From Gammaproteobacteria bacterium (lineage in GTDB: Bacteria > Pseudomonadota > Gammaproteobacteria > Steroidobacterales > Steroidobacteraceae), in the NCBI GenBank assembly GCA_027366635.1, contig DAHXNE010000116.1, positions 1-33,004 on the forward strand: DNA of 33,004 bases, in the 5' to 3' direction. Each line of letters opens with the position of its first letter. Within the stretch, counting starts at the first letter, position 1. Under the pieces are notes generated by a model. That model had not been told where the DNA came from and did not search any database. It was given only the letters and a program-made list of their open reading frames with translations. Below, one piece after another: positions 1 to 14,916 of this stretch. The translations under genes and the position numbers were made by a program.

Positions 1-113
1 ACCTGCGGCGGCGGGGCACCTCCTTGTGCCTGTGACCTTGCCGGGCCGTTTCGTGACTCGGGATCGACCGCCAGTCGATGGACAACTGGTGACGGCCGAC
101 GTTCCGGAACTAT

Positions 114-3100
114 TCACCAGCGCTGCGTGAGCTGTACGCTCAGCACGCGGCCGAGTGCCTGAACGTTGCCGATGTCATAGCCGAATTCGCTGTCGACGAA
201 CGGCGGAGACTGGTTGAAGACATTCACCGCGTTGAGCCGGAGGGTAGTCTGCCCGAAGCGACCCGGTCGCAACCTCTCGCTCGCGAACACGTCGAACGTG
301 GTCCAGGCTCGTACCACCGGCACGAGTGTGCTGGCCGGATTGCGATACGAGCCGGTGTAGTTGACGGCCAGATCGATGGCCGGGCCGGGCGCATCGCGGC
401 CATGCGCGCGCCAGCCAGCCGTGCCGCGCAACCGCAGTGACAGCGGGTTGCCGACGGTATTCAGGATACTCACCGAAGGAGAGGTGGGCGTCAGCGCCTG
501 ATCGAACCGCAGCACATCGGTGCCTCGCAGTCCGAAGTGAAAATGCCCCCACGGGTTCACGAACCGCTCGCGGGCCGCGATGTCAAAGCCGCTGGTTCGA
601 GTCGACGAAAGATTGGCCAGGCGCAGATCCACGATCGCGACCGGATGGCTCGCTAGACAGGTCGCGACGGGGCCGACGAACTGCCGGCTCTCGCAGATGG
701 CATCGATTTCCGCCGGTGTGGGCGCGCGGTTGATCACCGCTGCCCACTCGTTGCCGTCCTGCAAAACCGCGAACGGCGCGCCGGCCGCAGGCTGCTCGAT
801 CCGGTTCCGGTAGTCGATGCCGTAGAACGTGAGCGACAACTGTGCCCCGCTCCAGGGCGTCAAATCGAAACCCGCGGTCCAGGTACGCGCGGTTTCGTTG
901 GCGAGATTGGGATTGGAGCCCTGCTCGGCGAGCACCAATGACCTGCCGGTTGAGGACAGCGGGTCCGGCACGACCGTCAACCCCGACACGTTCTGCGACG
1001 TGTCGTACAAATCGTCGAGCGTCGGCGCGCGGTATGAGCGGCCCCAGCTGGCCCGCAGCCGCAGCCAGTTGGACGCGATCCACTCCAGCCGCGCCATTGG
1101 ATCGAATGTGCCACCGAAGTCGCTGTAATGATCGTAACGGCCGGCAAGATCGAGCGCCAGCCGCGGCGGCGAGTCCTCGCTGCCGCGGCTGGCGGCGAGC
1201 AACGGCACGTGCAGCTGTGAATATGCCGAAAATACCTGCCGTCCGTAGCGCTCGGAAACGAGCGTCCCGCTTGAACTGCTGAGCTGCGGCACCTCGAGCG
1301 CCAGAGCGTCGGCGCGCCATTCCAGCCCGACAGCAAGCTTGGCCTCCCCGGCAGGCAAACGCAGCAGCGGCCCGTTGGCGACCAGATCGCTCGTTTCCAG
1401 CGTCGAGGTCGAGTGGCGGCGATAATCCTGGCTGATCGCCGCCAATGTCGCCGGGCTGTTGTCCGATCCCGAGCCGAACGCATTGAAGGCGGTGGCCGGG
1501 TTGGCATCGGCCAGTGCCGCGGCGAGGCGCGCCGGACTGGCGACCCCGTACTCGTCGGCGAGCAGGTACTGCTTGCCGTCCGACTCGCTCGCGGTCAACT
1601 GCCAGCCCCGATCGAGTTGCGCCGTGACCCCGATCGTTCCGTCGTACACACGCGAAAGGGCGGCGAACCGTGTCGGTCCGAGATCGTCGAGAAAGCTGTA
1701 CGCGACGAGCGTGTAGGGGACGGATGGGTATGGATTGACGAAGTACGGGTTGCTCGCGGGCACCTGCAGTACCGCATCGTTGGGCATGGCGCCCTGATCG
1801 ATGTCGCGCTGGGCGTAGCGGACCTGGACAAACAGCCTCATCCTGGCGCTCACGCGCTGGCTCGCCGAGCCGTACACCTCGTTGGCGACCCGCTCCGGAA
1901 AGATCTGGTAGTCGACGAACGGGTTCTGCAGGTTGATCCGTGTGCTCAGATCGGCCGGAGCGAGCGCCGTACCGTTCTGTCCGCTCGGGATGCCGTACAC
2001 CGGTTCGAGCGTCAGCGGATCGAGGATATTGCCCGGATCGCTGTAATAGCTCTCATAGTTCGCGCCGCCAAAGGGCGTCTTATCGGCGCTGGCGGCATAG
2101 GTTCGGGCGCTCGCGGCCAGCGGCGTGGCATCGGTATACTCATAGGCGATCATGCCGTGCCCGCCCCGCCAGCGCGTGCCAAACAACTGCCCGAACATCG
2201 ACTCGCCGCGACCGCCGATCGCGCTTCCGTAGCGCACCCGTGTTTCCGCACCGTCGAAGCCGTTGCGCATCATGATATTCACGACCCCCGCCACAGCGTC
2301 CGCGCCGTAAAGCGCCGAGGCACCGTCGGGCAGCACTTCGATGCGCTTCACGGCGATCCATGGGATGGTCGATACATCGACGAACCCGCCGGTCAGCCCG
2401 CCGAGGGGCTGGCGGTGACCGTCCATCAGAACCAACGTCGCGCCCACGCCGAGACCGCGCAAATTAATGCCGGCGCCGTCCTCGACGTTACTGTCGATGC
2501 TCAAGTCCTCGCGCGGCCCATTCAGTGAGATCAATGGCAGCGCGTACAGTGCATCCTCGACGCTCGGGTAATCGGCCTGCTCCATCTGCGCACGACCCAC
2601 GTTGATGATGGCCGCGGTGGCCGAACGCACGCCGCGGATCAAGCTGCCGGTGACATCGACCGGCCGAAGCAGGGCATCTGTCCGATCCGTTCCCGGATCC
2701 ATCCGACGTGAGCCGGCGCGCACCACGCGCGCGCCGCGCCGACGCGCCGCAACGGTCGGCGGCGCCGGGCGGATGATGACCGACTGCTGCGAGTCGAACG
2801 TGAACGTCAGACCCGTGCCTCGCAGCATGCGCCCGAGCGCCGCTGAACTCGTCAGCAAGCCGTGAACCGCGTGCGTGCGCAGCTTGAGCACTTGCGGCGT
2901 CGCAGCGTAGATGGCCCGTACACCCGACTGACGATAGAATTCGAGCACCGCCTGAGGCAGCGGCCGGGCCGGCAAATTGAATTCGGCGACCGGGCCCTCC
3001 GCCCGCGCGTACGGCCGTGCGCACAGCAGCGCCAACGCCACGCAGAACGCCCCCGCCGCCCGCCGCCCGCCGCGACGCCCCAGATTCCCGTCTCCGGCTT

Positions 3101-3119
3101 CTTGGTTGCTCTGATCCAT
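114..3119 (-). CDS. TonB-dependent receptor with N-terminal STN signalling domain, lasso cluster
   Basis: Outer-membrane receptor of about 1001 residues. A signal peptide (hydrophobic AGAFCVALALLCA near residues 22-35) is followed by an STN domain (about 44-118, from VAEFNLPARPLPQAV), a plug domain (about 150-290, with NLRGLGVGATLVLMDGHR and LPDGASALYGADAVAGVVNI) and a 22-strand-type barrel ending in an aromatic residue (VQLTQRW). STN domains normally pass a periplasmic signal to a FecR anti-sigma factor, which controls a FecI sigma factor. A FecI-like sigma is encoded at the head of this cluster, but no FecR is visible. The gene starts 12 nt after the cyclase stop, so it is very likely in the same operon. 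By analogy with other proteobacterial lasso clusters it probably imports the mature peptide, perhaps loaded with a ligand; the substrate cannot be read from the sequence. An AGGGA sequence lies just before the ATG. Confidence 0.93.
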   Translation of the reverse strand: MDQSNQEAGDGNLGRRGGRRAAGAFCVALALLCARPYARAEGPVAEFNLPARPLPQAVLEFYRQSGVRAIYAATPQVLKLRTHAVHGLLTSSAALGRMLRGTGLTFTFDSQQSVIIRPAPPTVAARRRGARVVRAGSRRMDPGTDRTDALLRPVDVTGSLIRGVRSATAAIINVGRAQMEQADYPSVEDALYALPLISLNGPREDLSIDSNVEDGAGINLRGLGVGATLVLMDGHRQPLGGLTGGFVDVSTIPWIAVKRIEVLPDGASALYGADAVAGVVNIMMRNGFDGAETRVRYGSAIGGRGESMFGQLFGTRWRGGHGMIAYEYTDATPLAASARTYAASADKTPFGGANYESYYSDPGNILDPLTLEPVYGIPSGQNGTALAPADLSTRINLQNPFVDYQIFPERVANEVYGSASQRVSARMRLFVQVRYAQRDIDQGAMPNDAVLQVPASNPYFVNPYPSVPYTLVAYSFLDDLGPTRFAALSRVYDGTIGVTAQLDRGWQLTASESDGKQYLLADEYGVASPARLAAALADANPATAFNAFGSGSDNSPATLAAISQDYRRHSTSTLETSDLVANGPLLRLPAGEAKLAVGLEWRADALALEVPQLSSSSGTLVSERYGRQVFSAYSQLHVPLLAASRGSEDSPPRLALDLAGRYDHYSDFGGTFDPMARLEWIASNWLRLRASWGRSYRAPTLDDLYDTSQNVSGLTVVPDPLSSTGRSLVLAEQGSNPNLANETARTWTAGFDLTPWSGAQLSLTFYGIDYRNRIEQPAAGAPFAVLQDGNEWAAVINRAPTPAEIDAICESRQFVGPVATCLASHPVAIVDLRLANLSSTRTSGFDIAARERFVNPWGHFHFGLRGTDVLRFDQALTPTSPSVSILNTVGNPLSLRLRGTAGWRAHGRDAPGPAIDLAVNYTGSYRNPASTLVPVVRAWTTFDVFASERLRPGRFGQTTLRLNAVNVFNQSPPFVDSEFGYDIGNVQALGRVLSVQLTQRW

Positions 3120-3131
3120 GATCCCTGTCGC

Positions 3132-4976
3132 TCAACTGACAGTCTGCCATACACGGGGGCGCCGCGACGAGTCCCGACCGTGCCACCGCTCGAGCCACGA
3201 CTCGATGCAAGCGTATTCGACCAACTCGCCAGACTGAGTCTCGACTTCCGCCCGACCGGCGAGCGCTCGCTCCAGTCCCGACCGGTCCAGCAGGCCGTTC
3301 GCCACCAGCGTCCCATCGAGCAGCAGCTCACGCAGCAGCACGCGATTGCGCTCCACGGTCAGGCGCATGTGCGTCTCTATTCCGCCTTTGTTGCGCCGGT
3401 TGCGGATCTGCGGCGGCAACGCATCGAAGAAGGCGCGCCGTGCCAGCGCGCGATCCCAGCCGTCCATGGTCAGCACATCGACCGGTATGCGCAGACACAA
3501 CTCCATCAGCGGTTGTGAAAGCAGCGGCGCCAACCGCTCAGGATCCCCGGGCGCTCCGAGCGGATCGTAGAAATCGAACGGCGCGAGTATTTGATGGGCG
3601 TGCCACAGCTTCCCGCTCGGAACGTCTCGGCCGCGATGCAATAACGGGTGCAGACAGTACCTCTGCCGCACTGCCGTCGCTACGACACCCTCGGTGAGCA
3701 GCCCGCGCGCACGCCCGGCCTCGCGCACGGGGCTCCAGCGCCGCACACCGAGCGTCTCGCGCGCCGTGAGACCGAGCACCCGCCATAGCGACAGTTGATC
3801 CATGCGCGCGGAATCGAGCAGCACGCGCAGCAATCCGGGCCTTGGGCCGCGCCGATGCAGGAAGTCTCCCGGCGCCCATTGGGCTCGCTCCTGGTAGAAC
3901 AGCTGATCGCCGCCGTAGCCGATGAACACGCTCGCGGCGCCGCATTCGGCCGCAAGCGCCGCTTCACGGCGGCTGTGCTCGAGATAGTAGGGATAATTGG
4001 TGGGCTCGGCCGTGGCGGGGATGGACAGCAACGGGCGCAGATCGAACCCTCGGGAACGCGGCCGTTCGATCAGCCGAATACCGGCTCGCGCCGCGGCCAG
4101 TCGCGCGAATTGCCGCTCGTCGAGATCGGCCTGCAACGGATAATAGTGATAGCCGATCAATGCCGATTCACGCCCCGGCGCGAGCGACGCCAGCACGATC
4201 GACGAATCGAGCCCCCCCGAAAGCGACAGCAGCACCCGACCCGCGCCAGCGCCCCACGCGCGTACTACGTCGCGCACACAGTGTCCGAGCTTCGCGGACG
4301 CCGCCCGCGGGTCTTCTATCACTTGCCGTGCGGCGATCTGCAGCGGATCCCACACGTGGCCGCGGACCAATGCGCCCGCGCAATATCGCATGCACTCCCC
4401 GCCGACCAACTGCCGCACTTCGCGCAGGCCCGTCGGTCCGCTGTGCTCACGAACCAGAGCCAGACAGGCCAAGATGTACGACCAGTCCGGTCGCAGCGGC
4501 CGGGGACACAGATCGGCGACGTCCTCGATACGGGCGCAGAACACCTCGATCGGTCCGATACGCAACGCGTAACAGGGCAGTCCCGCGGATGGGTCACGTA
4601 GCACTGCGAGTGCGCCGGATTGCGGATCGCGCCAGAAGGCCACGTAACGGCCCCAATACGATTCGACGAGCCCACGGCCGCCGGACGAGACGATGGCGGC
4701 ACTTTGCGCGGGCGCGAGGACTGGTGGCGCCGCGGCCGACCCGTCCGCCTCATCGCGCACGAACAGCGTGCCGAGAATCACGCCTAGGCCGCCTGCGAGC
4801 CGGCGGACCTCACTCTGTCCCGAGAATTCGCCGGCACAGTGGACCTCCGCGCCATCGGCACTGAAAACACTGCGCCAGGGTCGAAATTCCGTCCCGAGAC
4901 GGGCCGCCAGCGCGTGTGCGGCGCGGCGCGCGCCGGGCTCATGTTCGTTCCAGATGAACGCGATGTAGCGAAACAC
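3132..4976 (-). CDS. Lasso peptide macrolactam synthetase (asparagine-synthetase-like, C protein)
   Basis: About 614 residues from a GTG start at 4976, two bases after the stop of the peptidase gene. The reading frame stays open upstream, but there it overlaps the peptidase gene and carries no family sequence, so I reject the longer form. The N-terminal half is a class II glutamine-amidotransferase-like fold without a Cys at position 2 (it begins V/M-FRYIAFIWN), so it should not hydrolyse glutamine. That is the rule for lasso cyclases. The C-terminal half is an ATP-pyrophosphatase domain with the loop SLSGGLDSS at about 251-259 and a later GYGGDQLF motif. In this family the enzyme adenylates an Asp/Glu side chain of the core peptide and closes the ring on the core's N-terminal amine. 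Ordinary asparagine synthetase is the alternative, but the neighbouring B protein makes the lasso role much more likely. Confidence 0.88.
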   Translation of the reverse strand: MFRYIAFIWNEHEPGARRAAHALAARLGTEFRPWRSVFSADGAEVHCAGEFSGQSEVRRLAGGLGVILGTLFVRDEADGSAAAPPVLAPAQSAAIVSSGGRGLVESYWGRYVAFWRDPQSGALAVLRDPSAGLPCYALRIGPIEVFCARIEDVADLCPRPLRPDWSYILACLALVREHSGPTGLREVRQLVGGECMRYCAGALVRGHVWDPLQIAARQVIEDPRAASAKLGHCVRDVVRAWGAGAGRVLLSLSGGLDSSIVLASLAPGRESALIGYHYYPLQADLDERQFARLAAARAGIRLIERPRSRGFDLRPLLSIPATAEPTNYPYYLEHSRREAALAAECGAASVFIGYGGDQLFYQERAQWAPGDFLHRRGPRPGLLRVLLDSARMDQLSLWRVLGLTARETLGVRRWSPVREAGRARGLLTEGVVATAVRQRYCLHPLLHRGRDVPSGKLWHAHQILAPFDFYDPLGAPGDPERLAPLLSQPLMELCLRIPVDVLTMDGWDRALARRAFFDALPPQIRNRRNKGGIETHMRLTVERNRVLLRELLLDGTLVANGLLDRSGLERALAGRAEVETQSGELVEYACIESWLERWHGRDSSRRPRVWQTVS

Positions 4977-4978
4977 GC

Positions 4979-5698
4979 CTAGATCCGCAGAATCGGTGTG
5001 TATTGCCGCACCCGGTCCGGCATGTCGTTGTAGAGCACAGCCTCCTGCTGCACCCAGCAATGAGCGTGAAACGGCGCGGTCCGCACGCCGAACACCCATT
5101 CGGGATACACGTCGTGCAGCGCGAGAAAATTCAATAGAGTCAGCGAATCGAGCAGGCATGCGTCCCGCGCGGTATAGAACAGGGGCCGCAGGTGCGCGAA
5201 GGTCATCACCAACTCATGAGATTTATCCCGATCCCAAGCCGCGCAGGACGGCCGTCGCGCGGCGCAACGCGCGCCCACCCGAGCGACCACGGTCTGCATG
5301 GAAGACAATGTCAGCGAAAGGCGCGCAGCCATCCAGGCCCGCGCCAGATCTGCGGCGGCACGCACACCGCCCGTCGGGCGCATGCCGAAGTCGAACTCCA
5401 GGAGCGTGTGGGACGGCTCCCGCGGCGGCACCGGAATCGCCAGTCGCCCTCGGCGAGCGTCCCTGACAAGCAGACCGTGCGCGAGCAGGCGCCGCACGAT
5501 ACGCGGCGCTGGTCGTCGACGTGTCCCCGGCAGCGGCCACCCCTGCACCCACCCGGCCAGCGCCTCGGCAGACTGCACGGCGTGATAGCGGTCGCGCCGC
5601 AAATCCATCAAGACCGCATGACGATCACACAGTCCGAGATAGACGTGTGCCGCAAGCCAATACGGTCCGTCGTCATCCGGGTCGTCGCCCGTTTCCAC
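4979..5698 (-). CDS. Lasso peptide leader peptidase (transglutaminase-like B protein with N-terminal RRE-like region)
   Basis: 239 residues from a GTG start preceded by GGGGAGGAG. The first 90 residues (YWLAAHVYLGLCDRHAVLMDLRRDRYH...) resemble the winged-helix leader-recognition (RRE) part that is fused to the protease in many proteobacterial B proteins. The C-terminal part is a transglutaminase-like cysteine protease with Cys181 (in ARDACLLDS), His213 (in FHAHCW) and Asp225 (in YNDMP). The spacings of 32 and 12 residues match the Cys-His-Asp triad known for McjB. The predicted role is ATP-dependent removal of the leader peptide before cyclisation by the downstream enzyme. The gene sits directly upstream of the cyclase (2-nt gap) and downstream of a 183-bp gap where the precursor would be expected. 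Confidence 0.9.
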   Translation of the reverse strand: METGDDPDDDGPYWLAAHVYLGLCDRHAVLMDLRRDRYHAVQSAEALAGWVQGWPLPGTRRRPAPRIVRRLLAHGLLVRDARRGRLAIPVPPREPSHTLLEFDFGMRPTGGVRAAADLARAWMAARLSLTLSSMQTVVARVGARCAARRPSCAAWDRDKSHELVMTFAHLRPLFYTARDACLLDSLTLLNFLALHDVYPEWVFGVRTAPFHAHCWVQQEAVLYNDMPDRVRQYTPILRI

Positions 5699-5740
5699 TG
5701 CTCCTCCCCGCCCCTTCGGCCGGCATGGCGCTCGGTGGCC

Positions 5741-5878
5741 CTAATCTGTACCACACCGGCGTCCATTTGGGGTAGTCGTGCCGCCGCGCTCCGTCAGCGC
5801 CCCCGCCGACGCCGACCACCGCCTCTCCCTCGCAGCGACCGCGCCGGCCCGCAGATCCGGATATTCGGTCAGTCGCAC
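5741..5878 (-). CDS. Small ORF in the expected position of the lasso precursor (uncertain)
   Basis: A 45-codon frame starting at GTG 5878, three bases after the sigma-factor stop, with a good ribosome site (GGGGGAG, 6-nt spacing). It fills most of the gap before the peptidase gene. The N-terminal half contains EYPDLRAG, loosely like the Tyr/Pro/Leu leader motif read by RRE domains. The C-terminal part contains SAGALTERGG. If the core began at Ser24, then Ser1 and Glu7 could form a seven-residue ring and a Ser would sit at the -2 position normally held by Thr. This is weak: the -2 Thr is missing and other cores are equally possible. A second frame through the same DNA also competes. The position is good; the identity is a guess. 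Confidence 0.28.
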   Translation of the reverse strand: MRLTEYPDLRAGAVAARERRWSASAGALTERGGTTTPNGRRCGTD

Positions 5879-5881
5879 CGT

Positions 5882-6655
5882 TCACTCCCCCGCCGCACGT
5901 TCGACCTGGCCGCATCCGCGGCGGTCGTTCCGTTCCGGCGTGCAGACCCGCGCGGGCTGAGCGCCATCCGGGCGGCGGGGTCGGTTCCGAGCAATCTGCG
6001 CGGAGTCGCTCTCTTCCAGACGCCTGTGCAATGACGCCAGCGCGCGCGCCACATAGACCTTCGCCATGCGTGCGCTGATACCCATCTCACGTCCCACTTC
6101 GTCGAACGGCCGGCCTTGAACGATGCGCAGTAAGAACGCATCCAGGCAGCGCGGCGGTAGTTGCCCGATGGCGCGCTCAATCACCTCGAGGCGCTGTCGG
6201 GCGTCCACCACGGTCTCCGCCGAAGGCGCGAGGGGCTCGGTTTCGCACCTGACCTCGCGGATGAAACGCTCCCGTACCGCTCGACGACGCGCCCGATCGG
6301 TCACCAGGTTGAGCGCACTGCGCCACAGGTAGCCGGTAAGCGATGCGATCCCCTCGCGGCGCTCGACGGCCAGCACCTTGACGTACGCCTCCTGGGCAAT
6401 TTCCTTGGCTTCCTCGACCGAACCGGTCCGTTGGGTCAGAAACCGCAGCAGCGAGCCATGGTGCTTGCGCGCAACGTCCGCCAGCGCCCGCGCACGCAAT
6501 GCACGCTCTACCGGTCCGGCAAAATCCGGCAGAGGCTCCGCCGCGCCGGCGTGCGGTCTCGATGCCTCGGCCGACCGAGCGCTCACTGGGACACCACTTG
6601 ATGCACAAACGCGCAAGCAGGGAGATCGGGAAACGCAATCGGCCCCGAATGACAC
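5882..6655 (-). CDS. ECF (FecI-like) RNA polymerase sigma factor
   Basis: 257 residues if read from GTG 6655. The first 40 residues look non-conserved, and an internal GTG at 6586 (234 residues) is equally possible. Sigma region 2 (about 72-135) contains LLRFLTQRTGSVEEAKEIAQEAYVKV and LWRSALNLVTDRARRR. Region 4 (about 170-222) contains LPPRCLDAFLLRIVQGRPFDEVGREMG and a helix-turn-helix ending VARALASLHRRL. About 37 low-complexity basic residues follow after the normal end of the family. FecI-type factors transcribe TonB-receptor operons on a signal passed through FecR, and this gene heads the lasso/receptor operon. The absence of fecR is unusual and suggests another anti-sigma or direct transcriptional control. 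Its own start lies about 330 nt downstream of a strong promoter and structured RNA. Confidence 0.85.
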   Translation of the reverse strand: MSFGADCVSRSPCLRVCASSGVPVSARSAEASRPHAGAAEPLPDFAGPVERALRARALADVARKHHGSLLRFLTQRTGSVEEAKEIAQEAYVKVLAVERREGIASLTGYLWRSALNLVTDRARRRAVRERFIREVRCETEPLAPSAETVVDARQRLEVIERAIGQLPPRCLDAFLLRIVQGRPFDEVGREMGISARMAKVYVARALASLHRRLEESDSAQIARNRPRRPDGAQPARVCTPERNDRRGCGQVERAAGE

Positions 6656-6799
6656 AACAGATTGATTGGCAACACGCCCACCCTTTTTTTGCCCGGCTCA
6701 CCGCCAGCGACCTGATGTTCCGGGCGACCCGGCCGCTCGGATGGAGAGGCCTCCGCGCACTCCACAGGATCGCTTGCTGGATGCATTACTCAGTAACAA

Positions 6800-6984
6800 T
6801 CACCCGGCAAAGCCGGGGGTCTCCTTTGTACTAGACTCTTGCCGAGACCCGACTTCGCACCGTCTCTCACGCCTCACCGATGAGTCTTGGGGGGTACAGG
6901 GCTCCGTCCCGCCCGCCTCATCGTGATGCAGCGCCAAAAAGCGACTCACCTGGTGACCAAGATGACGGAGCGCACGTCAATGCG
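6800..6984 (-). ncRNA. Densely structured RNA (omegaRNA/HEARO-like, or structured leader of the lasso operon)
   Basis: About 185 nt predicted to start just downstream of the promoter at 6991-7018. Perfect pairings are visible: 6964-6971 with 6901-6908 (8 bp), 6882-6887 with 6833-6838 (6 bp), nested within it 6862-6866 with 6844-6848 (5 bp), and a final CCCGGC-TTT-GCCGGG hairpin at 6803-6817. Smaller hairpins lie inside the first stem, such as TCACC/AGGTGA. The nested layout and unpaired conserved-looking stretches (CCTGTACCCCCC, GGTGCGAAGTCGG) remind me of the HEARO/omegaRNA class that guides IscB nucleases, but this is recall without an alignment. No IscB gene follows. The alternative is a 5' leader or attenuator of the sigma-factor gene that starts about 145 nt further on. 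Confidence 0.45.
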
Positions 6985-6990
6985 GCTGTT

Positions 6991-7018
6991 ATTATATACA
7001 GCCTTTGATCTCGGTCAA
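6991..7018 (-). promoter_or_regulatory. Near-consensus sigma70 promoter facing the lasso cluster
   Basis: On the minus strand a -35 box TTGACC (7018-7013) is followed by a 16-bp spacer and a perfect -10 box TATAAT (6996-6991). Initiation is expected near 6984. The -10 box lies in the loop of a GGCTGT/ACAGCC inverted repeat (7003-6998 and 6990-6985). The promoter would drive the structured RNA and possibly the sigma-factor operon beyond it. Confidence 0.65.
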
Positions 7019-7170
7019 CGTCTCGTGGGCGAATCGACCATTTGTCGGCGCCCCCGTTGCGAGATTTTCCGGATCTGTTGCATCGTCGAAGACAGCCGCT
7101 ATAGAAACCGCACAACTCGACGGACTTGCAAACGTCCTGAATCACGCCATCGAGTAGAGATAGACACATG

Positions 7171-7188
7171 CACGGACGACCGTCCGTG
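7171..7188. promoter_or_regulatory. Palindrome CACGGAC-N4-GTCCGTG, possible operator
   Basis: Perfect 7-bp arms around GACC. A second palindrome with related arms (ACGTCC-GAGAC-GGACGT) lies about 45 bp away at 7217-7233, and a weaker GGAC...GTCC pair lies at 7122-7136. Repetition of GGAC/GTCC arms suggests a dimeric regulator site. No cognate regulator can be named. Confidence 0.35.
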
Positions 7189-7216
7189 TAAGCGCTGTAA
7201 GCATTTGTTCGGAGTA

Positions 7217-7233
7217 ACGTCCGAGACGGACGT
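7217..7233. promoter_or_regulatory. Palindrome ACGTCC-N5-GGACGT, possible operator
   Basis: Perfect 6-bp arms. The arm sequence is related to the palindrome at 7171-7188. Confidence 0.3.
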
Positions 7234-7805
7234 CCCGGATCTCCGCCGCGGTGCGACGGAGGGGGCTCTGCGCGCCTGATGTCTCCGGCTCTCTCCGAAA
7301 TTCTCAATGACACTTTGGCATCAAAAACAACAACATAGTTATACACGTAGTCAACGTCCGAAGCCGGCCGCCAGTCTGGCGCCGGAAATACCGGGCCGCT
7401 GCGGCCGCGCAAGCGAAACGAGCAGCATGGGCCCCGGCGTATAACAGAGCCCCCCCCCGACCATCTTGAGCGGATTGCCACCGAAAGCCGCTCAAACCGT
7501 TGATGGGGATTGAAATCCGCGTCTTTCTGGTGATCGACGCGTTTTTGCGATTTCCTGGCACGCTGCTTGCTTGTTCCGCAGACCTCCCTATCCAGCTCGC
7601 CAAACAACTTCTTGATTCCACTGCGCCTGCGTCTGGGGGCAGCCGTGAGCCCCTGGAGGGAGGTGTCACCCTCGGCTACTGGCGGCGCTTCGGAAACCCG
7701 CGTCTCACCACCAGAATCAGGCAGTTTCTCGCCGCCGCCAACACTCAAACCAATTGTTGGCGAACAGCTACAGACCCGGACGTCTCACACTGCGCGTTTT
7801 ATGGC

Positions 7806-8687
7806 CTATTTCCCGCGCACACCGGCAAGAAGGTTTTCCACCGCGGGTGACGAGCGATGCCGGAAGGCAGTGATGGCGTAGAAGTGCTCAAATACTCCGG
7901 GAATCGCGCAATAGCGCTGCAGTTTGCCGTCGCGCAGTTCATCTTGAACCACCACTTCGGGCAATACAGCGATGGCGCCGGAGTCGCGCGCAAACAGCCG
8001 CAGCATTGCCATGTCATCGACTTCTGCCGCAACCTCGACCCTAATACGTGCGCGTTCGCACCACAAGTCAAATTGCGCGCGCGCGTCGCTGCTTGGCCCG
8101 GGTAATACCAAGCGCATGCCGGCCAGATCCTTTGGCAGCCGCAAGCGGCGACCGGTACGCGGCGGACCGATCAGGCACACCGACTGGCGCGAGAGCGGCA
8201 CGCAGCGCCACGGCCGCTCGCTGTCGGCAACCACCGGCCGGTTCGAGAGCAACACATCCAGATTGTGCACACGCAGTTGCTCAAGCAGTTCTGTGAGACT
8301 TCCGGATCGCAGGGTCAGACGGACCTCCGGCTGGCTAAACAGCGGACGCAACAGGTTTTCCGTGAAGTTTCGTGACAGCGTGGCGACCGCACCGACGCGC
8401 AGGTGCTGCTGGCGTTGTCCGTGTCCGCCGCGAACTGTCGCCATCAGCTCCTGGCCGAGACCGAAGATACTGTTTGCGTAATCGAGCACCAAAGCGCCGA
8501 AATCCGTCAAGTGCAACGAGCGGCCCGAACGCTCGAACAGTGGCCGACCGAGATACGTCTCGAGCTGACGAATCTGCGCCGACAACGCGGACTGAGACAG
8601 GCGGAGCTCCACGGCGGCCTTAGTTAGATGTCCGCGCTGCGCGACGGTCCAGAAATACATTAGATGACGGAAGTTTAGGTTTCGCAT
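7806..8687 (-). CDS. LysR-family transcriptional regulator (NhaR-like), divergent from dabB
   Basis: 293 residues. The N-terminal helix-turn-helix is clear (NFRHLMYFWTVAQRGHLTKAA then LSQSALSAQIRQLETYLGRPLF, residues 5-55). It is followed by a linker helix and a LysR substrate-binding domain (about 95-290) with AVLPEVVVQDEL near the end. The opening pattern resembles the NhaR branch of the family. It is transcribed away from dabB across a 97-bp gap, the usual arrangement for a LysR protein controlling its neighbour, and divergent LysR genes are known beside other dab operons. It probably senses a signal of CO2/bicarbonate limitation, but the co-inducer is unknown. Confidence 0.9.
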   Translation of the reverse strand: MRNLNFRHLMYFWTVAQRGHLTKAAVELRLSQSALSAQIRQLETYLGRPLFERSGRSLHLTDFGALVLDYANSIFGLGQELMATVRGGHGQRQQHLRVGAVATLSRNFTENLLRPLFSQPEVRLTLRSGSLTELLEQLRVHNLDVLLSNRPVVADSERPWRCVPLSRQSVCLIGPPRTGRRLRLPKDLAGMRLVLPGPSSDARAQFDLWCERARIRVEVAAEVDDMAMLRLFARDSGAIAVLPEVVVQDELRDGKLQRYCAIPGVFEHFYAITAFRHRSSPAVENLLAGVRGK

Positions 8688-8688
8688 G

Positions 8689-8729
8689 TTCTATTTTATG
8701 GAACGTTTTGTTTCAGTAATTCTATTTTA
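8689..8729. promoter_or_regulatory. Direct repeats TTCTATTTTA in the lysR-dabB gap
   Basis: Two identical 10-nt AT-rich repeats at 8689-8698 and 8720-8729, spaced 31 bp (about three helical turns). The first is embedded in GTTC-N9-GAAC (8688-8704), an inverted repeat of the T-N11-A type bound by LysR proteins. The region is far more AT-rich than its surroundings and must hold both promoters. Binding of the adjacent LysR protein is inferred. Confidence 0.5.
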
Positions 8730-8784
8730 CAGGTTGCCGCCTTCTCGGGATACTTGTCCGCGTCGCCGGACCGTTGGAGCAACT

Positions 8785-10338
8785 ATGCCGCATTACCCTC
8801 ACTGGACCGCTTGGCTCATACCGCTGTTCTACCTGCTTGGTGCCGCCGCTGCCGCACTGTCCCGGCGCGCACTCTGGTCGGTGCTCGAGTGCGTCGCGGG
8901 CGTCGCGTTCGTGGCGGCACTCACGAGTGATCTCAGCCGCTTGGTGCCGGAACTGGCATTCGGCCTTCGCAACGGTGCGGCCGCGATCATGGTCACCCTG
9001 GTCGCCGGTCTCGGCTGGGTTATAGCCCGCTACTCGCGGGGCAATCTCGCCGGAGAAACAGGCGAGCGGCGCTTCGTGTGCGCGCTGCTGCTGACGCTAT
9101 CAGGCGTGAGCGCGGTAGTAGCGGCGGGCAATCTTGTCGTGCTGATACTCGCCTGGGCCGCCAGCAGCGCCGCGCTTCACCCGCTGCTCACACATTACCG
9201 CGAGCGGCCGGCGGCGCGCATCGCCGCACGTAAGAAATTTTTTGTGAGCCGGCTCGCCGAGGCGAGCCTGTTCGGCGCAGCGATACTCCTCTATCGCCGA
9301 TGGCATACGCTCGATATTACGGCGCTGGACCGGCTGATCACGGCGCACGGCGCCGCCGGTGCCACCTTGCAGTGCGCCGCGCTACTGCTTGCCGCGGCGG
9401 TGCTGCTGAAGTCCGCCCAGCTGCCCGTGCACGGCTGGCTGCTGCAGGTCATGGAGGCGCCCACCAGCGTCTCGGCGCTTATGCACGCCGGCGTCGTCAA
9501 CCTCGGCGGCTATGTGCTGATCCGCCTCGCACCGCTCATATGCGCCTCGCTGCCGGCCCAGGGACTTCTGGTGATCGTCGGCACCACCACCGCGACGCTC
9601 GCTGGTCTGACCCTGATGACCTGTCCGTCGCTGAAGGTTCGGCTTGCTTGGTCGACCTGTTCGCAGATGGGACTGATGGCCGTGGAATGCGGTTTGGGGC
9701 TGTACGGCTTAGCGCTACTACACCTGGTCGGGCACGCGCTGTACAAAGCGCACGCATTTCTCTGCTCCGGCGAGGCGGTAAGCGCGAGCGATGTGGCGCG
9801 CATGCGCCCTGCCTCGCGCCCGCACGCTCGTCTTGCGCCGCTGCTCGGCCTAGTGGTTGCGAGCAGCGTAGTGACCGCCTCGGCATGGCTATGGCGGACC
9901 ATGACGGATACCCCGGCGGTCCCGGGGATCGCATTGCTGCTGTGCTCGTTAGGCGTGGCGACGCTCCTGTGGGATGTGAAGGCGGATCTCGCCACTTGGA
10001 CTCGCAACCTGCTCGCCGTTGCCTTCGCTGTGCAGCTGTATCTGCTGTGGCACCTGACGATGACGCGGGGTATCGGAATTTTCTCGGCACATCCCGCGCC
10101 GTTGCTCGCGCTGTACGTTGCGCTCAGTCTACTCGGATTGTACTCGATACAGGCGCACGTCCGGCGCACTGGTTTCGCGCACCGACGTTCGCGTCTGTAC
10201 GTCTGGTCGGCCGCCGGGTACTTCCTCGACGAGCCACTCACTCGACTCGTCACATCGCGATGGCCTTCGCGAATTGTCCGCGACATGCATGGGCACCTCG
10301 GCCAATTGCTGGCCCAGCGCGAAGGCGGTGCCGTTTGA
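8785..10338 (+). CDS. dabB: DabB, proton-conducting membrane subunit of the DAB inorganic-carbon pump
   Basis: 517 residues from ATG 8785, chosen because GGAG lies five bases upstream. The frame is open to 8686, but that stretch overlaps the repeats and lysR start region. It is a polytopic protein of the NuoL/MrpA (Proton_antipo_M) family, rich in hydrophobic segments throughout. The hallmark segment LKSAQLPVHGWLLQVMEAPTSVSALMHAGVVNLGGY is present at about 211-246; its lysine and the flanking helices form the proton path in relatives. In DAB systems this subunit uses the proton gradient to drive CO2 hydration by DabA, trapping bicarbonate in the cytoplasm. It is translationally coupled to dabA by a TTGA overlap. 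Confidence 0.92.
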   Translation: MPHYPHWTAWLIPLFYLLGAAAAALSRRALWSVLECVAGVAFVAALTSDLSRLVPELAFGLRNGAAAIMVTLVAGLGWVIARYSRGNLAGETGERRFVCALLLTLSGVSAVVAAGNLVVLILAWAASSAALHPLLTHYRERPAARIAARKKFFVSRLAEASLFGAAILLYRRWHTLDITALDRLITAHGAAGATLQCAALLLAAAVLLKSAQLPVHGWLLQVMEAPTSVSALMHAGVVNLGGYVLIRLAPLICASLPAQGLLVIVGTTTATLAGLTLMTCPSLKVRLAWSTCSQMGLMAVECGLGLYGLALLHLVGHALYKAHAFLCSGEAVSASDVARMRPASRPHARLAPLLGLVVASSVVTASAWLWRTMTDTPAVPGIALLLCSLGVATLLWDVKADLATWTRNLLAVAFAVQLYLLWHLTMTRGIGIFSAHPAPLLALYVALSLLGLYSIQAHVRRTGFAHRRSRLYVWSAAGYFLDEPLTRLVTSRWPSRIVRDMHGHLGQLLAQREGGAV

Positions 10339-12821
10339 GCGGCGCGGTCGCATCGCCGAAAAAGCGGAGCACACCGGCTTCGCGCCGCACGGCGCTGGAG
10401 GCCGCCTGCCGTACCATCGCGCCTGCTTGGCCGCTCGATCGACAGGTCGCGGTCAGCCCCTATTGGGGATATCGAGCGGTGCGCTTCGGCACGGCGGCCG
10501 AGCGGCTGCAGCGCCTCTGGGGTGCTCCCATGACTTTGGCGCGCGCGCAGTATCTGCATGCTTGGCAACAGGGTGAGATCCAGCGCGGTCACCTTGAACA
10601 AGCCCTGCGCGAACAATCGACCGTACCGGACGTCCCGACCGCGGTGCGCGCCCTTGAGCAGCCGGCGCCCGAAGCGGCCGGACTGCCGCTGCTCAGCGAC
10701 CGTCTCGACACTAACCCGCGCCGACGCGGCGCGGTGCCCTGGCGTCTGCGCATCACGCAACAGATCAGCGAGTACTGCGCAACCCACTTCGATCGTCTGC
10801 AGGCTGACTGGTCGCCCGGGCGCCGATCTGGACTATACGAAGGGTGGCGCGCAGCACTGCTCGAAGATCGCCGGTTCGCGCAACTACGAACTCGCACTGC
10901 CCAACTGCCTGCAACGGCCGAAGCGGCACTCGACTGGGCGCTCGAGCGACTGGCGGTGCGGGATGAGCACCTGATGGATCTGCTCGAGGTGATCGCCGGT
11001 CGTATCAGCGGATGGGGAGCGTGGTGCGCCTACTTGCGCTGGGAGGCGGCACTCGCTGGCGCTGACGACGCGAACCTGGGGCAGCTGTTGGTGATTCGTC
11101 TTAGCTGGGAGGCGCTGCTGCATGACGGTGGGCACGATGAGCAGTCGGCGTGGGGGGATTGGCTCGCACAGTGGAATGCTGGCGCGAGCGCCGAGGCTCC
11201 CGCATCGTTGGCGGTCGACCTGCTCTGGCAGCGCGCGCACGAGATCGCCTATCAGCAGCGGCTGTTCAGCGCCCTGTACGCGTCTTGCGACACGCGATCT
11301 AGCGCGCAATCCACTGTACCGGCCACACAACTGGTCTTCTGCATCGACGTGCGCTCGGAGCGTATGCGTCGCGCCGTCGAACATACCGATCACCGCGTGC
11401 GCACTTATGGGTTTGCCGGCTTCTTTGGACTACCTATACGCTACACCCCGCTTGGCACTTCGCTCGAACGCTGCCAGTTGCCTGCACTGTTTGAACCGAC
11501 GCTATCGGCGAGCGACACGAGCGGGAACGCACTCGAGGATGAATGCCTCGCGCGGCGGCGCCGGCAAGCGCTGCTGCGCGAGACCAGCCTGCAACCCTTC
11601 GCGCGCATGCCAACCGGCGCCTTCAGCACCGTCGAGATCTTCGGTCTCACCTATCTACCGAGACTTCTAGCCCGTGCTTTCGGCCACGCGCCGGACAACT
11701 CGAGGCACATCGGGCTCGAGCGCGCATCGCACACTACGCTGCGTCCGTACCTGACCCGCAGTGGTCCGGAATCGCTTGCCGAACAGGCGCAGCTCACTGC
11801 ACAGATCATCCACGCCATGGGGCTTGAGCGGCCCTTTGCGCGCCTGCTCGTGCTCATCGGGCACGGCGCACGCACCACCAATAATCCGCAGGCGGCTGCG
11901 CTCGCCTGCGGCGCCTGCGGTGGGCACAGCGGTGACGTCAACGCCCGGATCCTCGCCGATCTGTTGAACGACCCGCTCATGCGCCGCGCGCTCACTCAGC
12001 ATGGCGTGAACCTCCCCGAGCAGACAGTGGTCATCGCCGGACTGCACGATACAGTGACCGACACCGTGGAACTGTTTGAGCCGCAGTCCCTCTCCCAGGA
12101 TCACGCGGCCGATTTCGCGCGGTTGCGCGATACTCTGCGACGCGCTGGCGCGCTGGCACGCCGCGAGCGTGCTCCGGACCTTGGTCTGGCGCACCTCGTC
12201 GGACGTGATGCGGCGCTGTTGCGGCGCCTGCGGCGACGCACGCGCGACTGGGCGGAAGTTCGGCCCGAGTGGGGTCTCGCAGGAAACGCCGCGTTCATCC
12301 TAGCGCCGCGCGCGAGGACCCGCGGCATCGATCTTGACGGTCGGGTATTTCTGCACGAGTACCACTGGCCGCAGGACCCAGACGGCGCGTTGCTCGGACA
12401 ACTGCTCGCCGGCCCGTTGATCGTGGCACACTGGATTAACCTGCAATACTACGGATCTACCGTGGATCCAGAACGCTTCGGCAGCGGTAATAAACAGTTG
12501 CATAACGTAGTCGGCGGTCGCATTGGAGTCTTGGAGGGACACAGTGGGGATCTACGAATCGGACTGGCCCGTCAGTCGGTACATGATGGTTCGCGTTGGC
12601 GACACGCACCACTGCGACTGACGGTGCTCATCGACGCGCCACGCGAGCGGATTGAACGGATCGTCCAGGCACAGCCCGACATACTGCAGCTGGTCGAGCA
12701 CCAATGGCTGCACCTTTACCGTCTGCAGGACTCCGGACCGGAGCGCATGTTTTGTCCGCGGCATATGCAAGATATTGCACCGCCCGGAGGCGTCCGCACG
12801 ACATTGGGGGTCCCGACGTGA
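10335..12821 (+). CDS. dabA: DabA, zinc-binding carbonic-anhydrase-like subunit of the DAB pump (DUF2309)
   Basis: 828 residues from TTG 10335, which overlaps the dabB stop. The frame is open further upstream, but only as a shadow of dabB. The zinc-site residues known for this family are all present: Cys336 and Asp338 (FCIDVRSE), His510 (LIGHGARTTNN) and Cys525 (ALACGACGG). The His-Cys spacing of 15 matches the known DabA site. The protein is cytoplasmic or peripheral and works with DabB as a vectorial carbonic anhydrase that accumulates bicarbonate. DABs occur both in autotrophs with carboxysomes and in heterotrophs that need bicarbonate for anaplerosis; no Rubisco or carboxysome gene is in the window. 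The last bases overlap the cysD start (GTGA). Confidence 0.94.
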   Translation: MSGAVASPKKRSTPASRRTALEAACRTIAPAWPLDRQVAVSPYWGYRAVRFGTAAERLQRLWGAPMTLARAQYLHAWQQGEIQRGHLEQALREQSTVPDVPTAVRALEQPAPEAAGLPLLSDRLDTNPRRRGAVPWRLRITQQISEYCATHFDRLQADWSPGRRSGLYEGWRAALLEDRRFAQLRTRTAQLPATAEAALDWALERLAVRDEHLMDLLEVIAGRISGWGAWCAYLRWEAALAGADDANLGQLLVIRLSWEALLHDGGHDEQSAWGDWLAQWNAGASAEAPASLAVDLLWQRAHEIAYQQRLFSALYASCDTRSSAQSTVPATQLVFCIDVRSERMRRAVEHTDHRVRTYGFAGFFGLPIRYTPLGTSLERCQLPALFEPTLSASDTSGNALEDECLARRRRQALLRETSLQPFARMPTGAFSTVEIFGLTYLPRLLARAFGHAPDNSRHIGLERASHTTLRPYLTRSGPESLAEQAQLTAQIIHAMGLERPFARLLVLIGHGARTTNNPQAAALACGACGGHSGDVNARILADLLNDPLMRRALTQHGVNLPEQTVVIAGLHDTVTDTVELFEPQSLSQDHAADFARLRDTLRRAGALARRERAPDLGLAHLVGRDAALLRRLRRRTRDWAEVRPEWGLAGNAAFILAPRARTRGIDLDGRVFLHEYHWPQDPDGALLGQLLAGPLIVAHWINLQYYGSTVDPERFGSGNKQLHNVVGGRIGVLEGHSGDLRIGLARQSVHDGSRWRHAPLRLTVLIDAPRERIERIVQAQPDILQLVEHQWLHLYRLQDSGPERMFCPRHMQDIAPPGGVRTTLGVPT

Positions 12822-13768
12822 CAATTGAGCCCGCGCCCGCTCCGCGTCCGAATCATTCGCTGTCTGAGAGCCGGCGCGCCGCGCTAGCGCAACTCGAAGC
12901 GGAGGCGATCTACGTGCTGCGCGATGCCATCGCCGAAGCGCGCAATCCCGTGTTGCTGTTCTCAGGCGGAAAGGACTCTACCGTACTTGCCCATTTAGCC
13001 TGTCGCGCGTTTCATCCCTCCCGGCCGCCCTTACCATTGTTACACATTGATTCGACGTGGGAATTCCGCGAACTGCTTCAGTTTCGTGACTGGTTCGCGC
13101 GGCATAACGGCTTTGACCTACGCGTGCATCACAACGAGGCGGGACGGGCCGCGGGCATCAATCCGTTCGAACATGGTGACCACTACACAACCGTGATGCG
13201 CACCGATGCACTGAAAAGTGCGTTGGATGCCGGGGGTTACGACATCATCCTAGGCGGCGCGCGACGCGACGAGGAGCGCTCGCGCGCCAAAGAGCGCGTC
13301 GTTTCCATACGCAACCGCCACCACAGCTGGGATCCTCGCCGGCAGCGGCCGGAGCTGTGGAATTTATTCAATTTCCATCTCGGCCCTCAGGAGAGCGCGC
13401 GCGTCTTTCCGCTATCGAATTGGACGGAAGTCGACGTGCTCGCATATGCGGTATCGCGCAGCGTCGAGCTCGCGCCCCTTTATCTGGCGCGCCCTCGTTC
13501 AGTAGTTGCGCGCGACGGCCAACTTATCGTCGTCGACGACCGCCAGCGCATGCCGTTGCGATGCGGCGAGGTTGTCCAGGTACGGAAGGTGCGCTTTCGC
13601 ACCCTGGGGTGTTGGCCGGTGACCGCGGCGGAAGAATCCGACGCCGAAACACTCGCCGAGGTGCTTGCCCAGACCCTGCGCTCGCGCCGCTCGGAACGCA
13701 GCGGCCGGCTCGCCGACCGCGACGCTGGCGACTCGCTCGAGCAGCAAAAGCGCGACGGCTATTTCTGA
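12818..13768 (+). CDS. cysD: CysD-like sulfate adenylyltransferase small subunit (without cysN)
   Basis: 316 residues from GTG 12818, overlapping the dabA stop. It matches CysD across its length: RDAIAEARNPVLLFSGGKDST (PP-loop), PLLHIDSTWEFRE, NPFEHGDHYTTVMRT, GGARRDEERSRAKER, VFPLSNWTEVDVLAY, VRFRTLGCWPVT, and the family C-terminus QQKRDGYF. CysD makes adenosine 5'-phosphosulfate from ATP and sulfate, but normally only with the GTPase CysN. No cysN, cysC or cysH is present here. The PP-loop reads SGGKDS, where the usual CysD has SIGKDS. Coupling to dabAB by overlap implies co-expression. It may use a CysN encoded elsewhere or have a changed role. Confidence 0.9.
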   Translation: MTIEPAPAPRPNHSLSESRRAALAQLEAEAIYVLRDAIAEARNPVLLFSGGKDSTVLAHLACRAFHPSRPPLPLLHIDSTWEFRELLQFRDWFARHNGFDLRVHHNEAGRAAGINPFEHGDHYTTVMRTDALKSALDAGGYDIILGGARRDEERSRAKERVVSIRNRHHSWDPRRQRPELWNLFNFHLGPQESARVFPLSNWTEVDVLAYAVSRSVELAPLYLARPRSVVARDGQLIVVDDRQRMPLRCGEVVQVRKVRFRTLGCWPVTAAEESDAETLAEVLAQTLRSRRSERSGRLADRDAGDSLEQQKRDGYF

Positions 13769-13790
13769 TATCCCGCGAGGAGAGTCGACT

Positions 13791-14003
13791 ATGGCCCTGG
13801 AAAACCATGACATCGATCTGCTCATCGCCGAACAGCGCATTCAAAGTGCACTCGCGCACCCGGCATTGAGCGACTGGCTAAAAGATACGCTACGTTCCGC
13901 TCTGGAGCGCGACCCGCTCGCTCTCGCCAATGACCTGGAACTGCTCGGGCACCTGCTGCGGTCCTGGTCGGCGGCACACATTGCTCGTGAGTCCCACCCC
14001 TGA
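13791..14003 (+). CDS. Small hypothetical protein (orf70) at the end of the dab operon
   Basis: 70 residues from ATG 13791 with a strong GAGGAGA ribosome site, 22 nt after cysD. A longer in-frame start exists but lies inside cysD. The protein looks wholly alpha-helical and soluble (MALENHDIDLLIAEQRIQSA..., ...LANDLELLGHLLRSW), with no membrane segment, Cys pair or recognisable domain. Good initiation signals, operon position and the terminator just downstream support a real gene. I do not recognise the family. A small partner of CysD or DabA is one guess. Confidence 0.7.
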   Translation: MALENHDIDLLIAEQRIQSALAHPALSDWLKDTLRSALERDPLALANDLELLGHLLRSWSAAHIARESHP

Positions 14004-14076
14004 CGGACCGGCGGCACGCACGACGCCGCATGGCCGGTATGCCCTCCATAACCGGTGATCGGCCGATCGCTCCAGA

Positions 14077-14098
14077 CGGCGCCGCGTGTGCGGCGCCG
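14077..14098 (+). terminator. Rho-independent-type terminator of the dab operon
   Basis: Perfect 9-bp GC stem (14077-14085 with 14090-14098) around a GTGT loop, followed by GCTCCGTTT with a short T run. It lies 74 bp after orf70 and closes the dabB-dabA-cysD-orf70 unit before the transposase remnant. Confidence 0.7.
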
Positions 14099-14133
14099 GC
14101 TCCGTTTGACTCTAGCTTAGTAACCGTGCCTGC

Positions 14134-14830
14134 GTGGCGTGGGTCGGGGAGGGACGGGAGTCAATCGATCGATTCTTCACCGAGGTATTGAGCCCCGGCC
14201 AGAAGCAACGCATTCTTTGGGCCAGCAGCGACATGAGTCGCGCTTACACCGAAGCCATCAAGGCGCACTGCCCAAACGCCACCCTCGTGATCGATCGCTT
14301 CCACCTGATCAAGACGCTCAACGAAGCAGTCGACGAGGTGCGCAAGGAGCAGTGGGGCAAACTCGCTCCCGAGCAGCGCCAGTCCGTTAAGCGCCTGCGC
14401 TGGCTGCTCGGCATGGGCTCGGCCACGCGCACCAAGGCGCACACTCGCGCGCAACCGTCTCGTCCGCGGCAACCGTCGCATCTATCCAGCCTGGGTGCTG
14501 AAGGACGAGTTCGAGAAGTTCTGGAGCTACAGCTATCTGGCCAGCGCCGAGGCCTTCCTCAAGCGCCGGATGACCGCGGCGTTGAGAAGCCGCCTGCCTT
14601 CCCTGCGCACCTTCGTTGCTACCTTGCGCGATCATTACGAAAACGTCATCACCTACATCGAGCGCTCGCTCACCAACGCGGTCGCTGAAGGCATCAGCCG
14701 CGTCGTCAAGATCGCCAAGAATCGCGCCTCCGGCTTTCGCGGTTTGCACAACCTCGCCGACATGATCCACCTCATCGTCGGTGACCTGGATATTCCTGAG
14801 CATATCCCTTCCACTTTGAAGACACTCTAA
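14134..14830 (+). pseudogene. ISL3-family transposase remnant, 5'-truncated and frameshifted
   Basis: The first frame (14134 to about 14440) encodes WVGEGRESIDRFFTEVLSP, ASSDMSRAYTEAIKAHCPNA and VIDRFHLIKTLNEAVDEVRKEQ, which is the DDE core region of ISL3-family transposases. Around 14420-14445 the homology moves to another frame (NRLVRGNRRIYPAWVLKDEF...), continuing with the C-terminal region (RSLTNAVAEGISRVVKIAKNRASGFR) to the stop at 14830. The N-terminal zinc-finger and helix-turn-helix part, roughly the first third, is missing. I could not define terminal inverted repeats. The element is dead unless rescued by a complete copy elsewhere. Confidence 0.88.
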
Positions 14831-14916
14831 CCGCAGCTTGAGACCCTATGAATTCCTGAGTATCCTTCAAATGTTGATCACTGCCAAACCCGGATGCAGC
14901 CATGCTTCCGAACGGC

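Follow-up and report, generated by a model that had tools for sequence, protein, structure and literature searches.

FecIRA-type transmembrane signalling is the model with which we compare the locus described here. Lasso peptide clusters that have an isopeptidase come with a receptor and with sigma/anti-sigma pairs in a nearly constant layout, and the purpose of the receptor and of these pairs is called enigmatic in a review (PMC9266682). The stretch analysed here, the window, is 33,004 nucleotides long and is the entire contig C91 (DAHXNE010000116.1) of a Steroidobacteraceae draft genome (GCA_027366635.1; 86.6% complete, 127 contigs), and toward its left end it carries lasso genes next to genes for a TonB-dependent receptor and an extracytoplasmic function (ECF) sigma factor. 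Our overall reading, to which we give a probability of about 78%, is that these genes belong to a lasso cluster (cluster 1) cut by the contig end, that a FecIRA-like loop can be proposed for it, and that the sigma factor in the window, SIGw, is most likely a remnant of a second cluster (cluster 2). Read on the minus strand across the break into contig C25, the order is SIGw, B, C, the STN-like receptor, the precursor gene A on the opposite strand, SIG1 and FecR. The features are as follows.

Window 114..3119, minus strand: TonB-dependent receptor (TBDR1), 1001 amino acids; Pfam barrel 9.7e-33, Plug 2.4e-16, STN 5.7e-5
Window 3132..4976, minus strand, open reading frame (ORF) open to 5159: lasso cyclase C (C1); PF00733 4.4e-21, SGGLDS, alignment of relatives
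Window 4979..5698, minus strand: lasso leader peptidase B (B1); PF13471 4.4e-13, NF033537, triad
Window 5882..6655, minus strand: orphan ECF sigma factor SIGw; PF08281/PF04542, 64-68% to SIG2 of loci L048-L050
Window 1..141, no strand: overlap at the contig end, the same sequence as the final 141 bases of C25 and also of C50
C25:110230-111261: FecR (FecR1); FecR match 1.6e-20
C25:111258-111827: ECF sigma factor SIG1, 189 amino acids; match to its L036 orthologue
C25:112002-112169, plus strand: lasso precursor A, 55 amino acids; T-x-G-G motif, Asp9

Like the astexin, sphingopyxin I and benenodin clusters, as PMC9266682 gives them, this cluster has a precursor, B, C, a TonB receptor and a sigma/anti-sigma pair, and like the rubrinodin cluster as described in the same review it combines lasso genes with a receptor and a FecI/FecR-like pair. 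Unlike the astexin-type clusters, it has no isopeptidase beside it, its receptor gene shares the transcription direction of B-C, and its precursor gene, instead of adjoining B-C, is placed past the receptor, where it lies on the opposite strand and diverges from SIG1. As in FecIRA, the STN-like receptor, FecR and FecI-like sigma factor stand side by side; unlike in FecIRA, the proposed ligand is the peptide that the cluster itself would make, and a second, orphan sigma gene lies upstream of B. This layout was not found described in the literature searched, most subscription papers lying outside that search. From what follows, the cluster is real and probably works in this variant layout, with an opposite-strand precursor between receptor and SIG1 and no isopeptidase.

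Probable continuation of the window on contig C25

The left end of C91 is 113 bases beyond the stop codon of the receptor gene. By sequence comparison, window bases 1-141 are identical to the final 141 bases of C25, and bases 1-87 are part of a dispersed repeat with 29 matches in the genome; its unit is 169 bases, and contig C50 has three such units in tandem (L104:2457-2964). The presence of this repeat in the overlap would probably explain why the assembly broke here. It counts against the join that C50, of 3018 bases, terminates in the same 141 bases, and the overlap alone is therefore ambiguous as proof that C25 continues into C91; synteny decides. (Two ORFs of C50 we take, from their look, to be smpB-like and ratA-like.) In locus L053 (JAJZZR010000374.1) the phosphotransferase system (PTS) gene, SIGw, B, C, the receptor, the precursor, SIG1 and the beginning of fecR are all on one contig; an alignment of the C25 end plus the window to this contig gives about 87% when about 170 bases of repeat-bearing insert are omitted. 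Likewise, colinearity with the C25 end extends over 3063 columns (88.5%) in L046 of genome G176, which continues past that match into the receptor and C. Receptor, FecR and FecI-like sigma genes are adjacent to one another in the relatives, and the L036 orthologue of SIG1, 79% identical to it, matches Sigma70_r4_2 at 1.5e-14. Judged from this synteny, FecR and the precursor exist, and the seeming absences in the window are mostly an assembly effect.

The preliminary description of this DNA, made from the window alone, had reported B and C linked to an STN-type receptor and an ECF sigma factor, which are placed as claimed, with the receptor's STN match below the Pfam curated cut-off (23.3 vs 28.4 bits). 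It had also reported that FecR was missing, that there was no obvious precursor, perhaps an atypical one, and that receptor and sigma factor lacked the protein that should connect them. FecR and an ordinary-motif precursor are both across the contig end, and the cluster has its own FecR1/SIG1 pair; what stands of the last claim is that SIGw itself is without a FecR. That the cluster has no FecR and an atypical or absent precursor, with the window sigma factor coupled directly to the receptor, agrees with the window taken alone, which holds neither gene, but with both of them on C25 in a position conserved in relatives we consider this reading very improbable, and it is refuted already if C25 does join C91. 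For genome mining this is a warning, as two of the three parts called missing were one contig end away; it also makes the interest of the locus modest, the most striking earlier claims having arisen from that contig end. On C25, csrA (L003:814-1047) adjoins fecR1, and it does so in several relatives as well.

Precursor, enzymes and the proposed loop

The 55-codon precursor gene ends in ...ELVELGKISETQ-GGLLGAKYDSAVGWQYY, of which GGLLGAKYDSAVGWQYY is the core. It has Thr at -2, Gly1 and Asp9, an Asp or Glu at positions 7-9 being required, and it sits between the receptor and SIG1 genes on the strand opposite to both. The receptor-SIG1 interval was covered in 14 genomes (the window genome, L053, G176, G066, G146, G126, G134, G079, G164, L058, L059, L062, L066 and L068), only the precursor strand being translated, and a T-x-G-G precursor is found on the same strand of the same interval in 13 of them, the ring Asp being residue 9 in 12 genomes and residue 8 in L068. 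In the 14th, G134, the precursor frame is present and the ring Asp is lost. Compared with L053 and with G176, the 17 codons of the core have 7 synonymous and 0 replacement changes, and the 13 codons preceding the core have 3 synonymous and 2 replacement changes. By its motif the precursor is ordinary, and it is odd only in location; a search restricted to the surroundings of B and C would overlook it.

It had been proposed to look for the precursor at 5600-7800 of the window and before position 1. The small ORFs of 5600-7800 were inspected and none was found to be a precursor; against G176, the DNA between B and SIGw gives a poor alignment that contains indels. The SIGw tail was also considered as a fused precursor, an idea which came from a weak NCBIfam sigma/methanobactin-precursor match covering only sigma residues 61-222, and was rejected, the tails differing among orthologues. 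A promoter motif common to SIG1 and B was considered as well: inspection by eye showed the word GCATCT close to a G-rich run in 13 of the 14 stretches upstream of SIG1, and this block was not seen in eight stretches upstream of B, with no statistical test.

B1 has an RRE-like (precursor recognition element-like) N terminus and a cysteine-protease C terminus, and it scores 69.8 bits against NF033537 (lasso_biosyn_B2), for which the cut-off is 33. The triad Cys181, His213 and Asp225, earlier described as intact, is present and conserved: all 13 aligned B proteins have the Cys and the His, 12 of the 13 have the Asp, and in a second, overlapping B set the Asp is in 17 of 17. The likely start of C1 is the GTG at 4976, directly after the B stop codon, giving 614 amino acids out of a full ORF of 675. 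The ATP loop SGGLDS, also described as intact, is at residues 314-319 of the 675-residue ORF and is invariant in 7 of 7 aligned sequences, and the best NCBIfam matches of C1 are macrolactam/lasso cyclases. TBDR1 orthologues in the relatives are 60-85% identical.

Some results weigh against reading this as a lasso system. C1 scores below the NCBIfam cut-offs for lasso cyclases. NCBIfam is without a family that matches the precursor. The predicted B1 structure (predicted local distance difference test score of the model 87.7) is without a PDB match at E <=0.001, and the RRE fold match is weak: the profile match to the RRE of TfuB1 has an E of 0.46, and a Foldseek comparison of the N terminus of the model with the lasso RRE of TbiB1 gives a probability of 0.87 at an E of 0.35, with an unrelated chain ranked top. 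Separately, PDB searches with B alone and C alone returned zero matches at the limits used, and a C profile found only distant synthetases.

Between the window genome and G176, the ratio of nonsynonymous to synonymous substitution rates (dN/dS) is 0.259 for the receptor, 0.157 for C, 0.218 for FecR1 and 0.077 for SIG1. These low values speak against the suggestion that the cluster could be a relic. Decay does occur in relatives, as the same cluster is broken in G134 (C broken, L039), where the precursor has also lost its ring Asp, and truncated in G114 (C truncated, L044), but in the window genome the motifs are all intact, dN/dS is low and the changes in the core are synonymous only; a decaying relic is thus a very improbable account of this locus.

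In the loop that we propose, B would bind the leader and cut it off after ...SETQ, and C would activate Asp9 and link it to Gly1; for the resulting knotted peptide of 17 residues the calculated monoisotopic mass is 1828.88 once ring-closed, against 1846.89 for the linear form. The threaded peptide would exit the cell and be bound again by the receptor, whose STN domain would signal via FecR1 to SIG1 in FecIRA-like fashion, and no dedicated enzyme would open the peptide. SIGw may now act on B-C-receptor in cis. An ABC (ATP-binding cassette) exporter gene is upstream of B1 in four relatives, next to a cluster 2; the cluster of the window has none beside it, and the window genome has a 57% homologue on contig C117.

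Isopeptidase

The isopeptidase search was made with a profile of seven isopeptidase-like proteins, chosen on the basis of one PDB match to 5jrk (1.7e-9), presumably the sphingopyxin enzyme, another to AtxE2 (3.3e-15), their mutual alignment, and a match to NF033523 under its cut-off. With this profile, neither the window nor the final 6.4 kb of C25 yielded an isopeptidase-like ORF. The absence noted earlier has held to this extent; a precursor, fecR and an isopeptidase just outside the window had been expected of a standard cluster, and the first two are there while the third was not found. Among the 14 cluster-1 genomes, four (G066, G146, G126 and G134) have an isopeptidase gene nearby, and in each case it belongs to a second lasso cluster, which has B and C genes of its own. 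In the other 10 there is no isopeptidase in the flanks covered, some of which are short.

When the profile was run genome-wide, all 10 genomes searched gave some match at E 0.001, which is expected of a prolyl-oligopeptidase-like family. The missing gene would mean nothing if an isopeptidase in trans, for example that on C117, opened the peptide. The window genome, 86.6% complete, does have one strong match, on C117 (752 bits; AtxE2-like at 3.3e-15), and G079 has two strong matches, both away from its cluster 1. G164 (96% complete), however, gives at best 18.6 bits and G176 (95% complete) at best a partial match of 60.9 bits, and those isopeptidases that have been tested act on no peptide other than that of their own cluster (PMC9266682). 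Opening in trans is thus rather unlikely, though of the alternatives weighed in this study it is the one that we take most seriously. The C117 gene sits in a separate lasso cluster (cluster 3; L005, C117:5000-24900 of the window genome) with its own B, C, receptor, FecR and sigma factor, in which sigma, FecR, receptor and the AtxE2-like protein face C and B. With the motif used, no precursor was found for cluster 3, and for cluster 2 one was found in G126 only.

The C tree had 45 rows, made up of 39 of the 47 loci (L054, L055, L061, L087, L089, L090, L093 and L096 were omitted) and six other rows. The 14 cluster-1 C rows form one group with a support of 94/89, with long branches flagged by the tool, and the place of this clade among the isopeptidase-bearing rows is weakly supported (81/43). 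In the sequences compared, the clade departs from the isopeptidase-cluster layout in two ways, having no isopeptidase and having the precursor elsewhere. A clade with receptor and FecIR and without isopeptidase separates these two features, and this separation makes it testable whether the peptide serves as a signal or carrier without any need to be opened.

SIGw and the second cluster

The homology of SIGw to SIG2 stops about at the end of SIG2; the part of SIGw past residue 223 or so shows no conservation, and beyond the end of this homology there was no sign of FecR2. The dN/dS of the SIGw core against G176 is 0.089, near the 0.077 of SIG1, and by this value the core is under purifying selection and the gene retained. 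In G146, G126 and G134 (L048-L050), SIG2 adjoins the PTS gene and is followed by FecR2 and a second receptor and, farther along (L037-L039), by an isopeptidase, C2, B2, a protein of unknown function, an ABC exporter and cluster 1. In G176 and L053, SIGw is alone between the PTS gene and B1, and in the window genome it is likewise alone, except that a 7.6-kb insertion lies upstream. The most likely explanation is that SIGw is left over from a second lasso cluster, one with an isopeptidase, which relatives have at this place and which here was lost but for its sigma factor.

This explanation has observations to contend with. The dN/dS of the whole of SIGw is 0.262, with a divergent tail. In L056, L059 and L066, where cluster 1 is alone and the PTS gene adjoins B1, there is no sigma gene at the place of SIGw, which fits the loss of cluster 2 less directly. 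The opposite order of events would be that SIGw was present first and that other lineages gained the remainder of cluster 2 next to it by insertion, as could be thought from the window genome, G176 and L053, which have only SIGw between the PTS gene and B and no trace of FecR2 beside it. This is less easily reconciled with SIG2 and FecR2 overlapping by 4 bases in L048, L049 and L050, in the fashion of a coupled pair, with the homologous SIG2-FecR2 pair standing together elsewhere in G079 (L047), and also with the lack of a sigma gene next to B in L056, L059 and L066; we regard it as unlikely, slightly more so than the opening of the peptide in trans. With SIGw taken as a remnant of cluster 2, a tentative and broader proposal, which we hold to be somewhat doubtful, is that of a lasso subfamily whose peptide is sensed by STN/FecIR and never opened by a dedicated isopeptidase, and whose divergent precursor and sigma genes share a control region; in the lineage of the window, a second sigma factor, freed from its FecR by the loss of the neighbouring cluster, would have been captured upstream of the biosynthetic genes.

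The 7.6-kb block (window 7287-14907), between the stretch upstream of SIGw and the PTS gene, is not at the corresponding place in G176 and L053; it carries genes for a LysR regulator, a DabB-like antiporter subunit, a DabA inorganic-carbon transporter and a PAPS (3'-phosphoadenosine-5'-phosphosulfate)-reductase-like protein. The gene for the protein of unknown function at L036:10718-11854 has a weak match, under the cut-off, to a DnaA-C-like helix-turn-helix; it is coupled to the ABC exporter gene and is located between the two lasso clusters of relatives.

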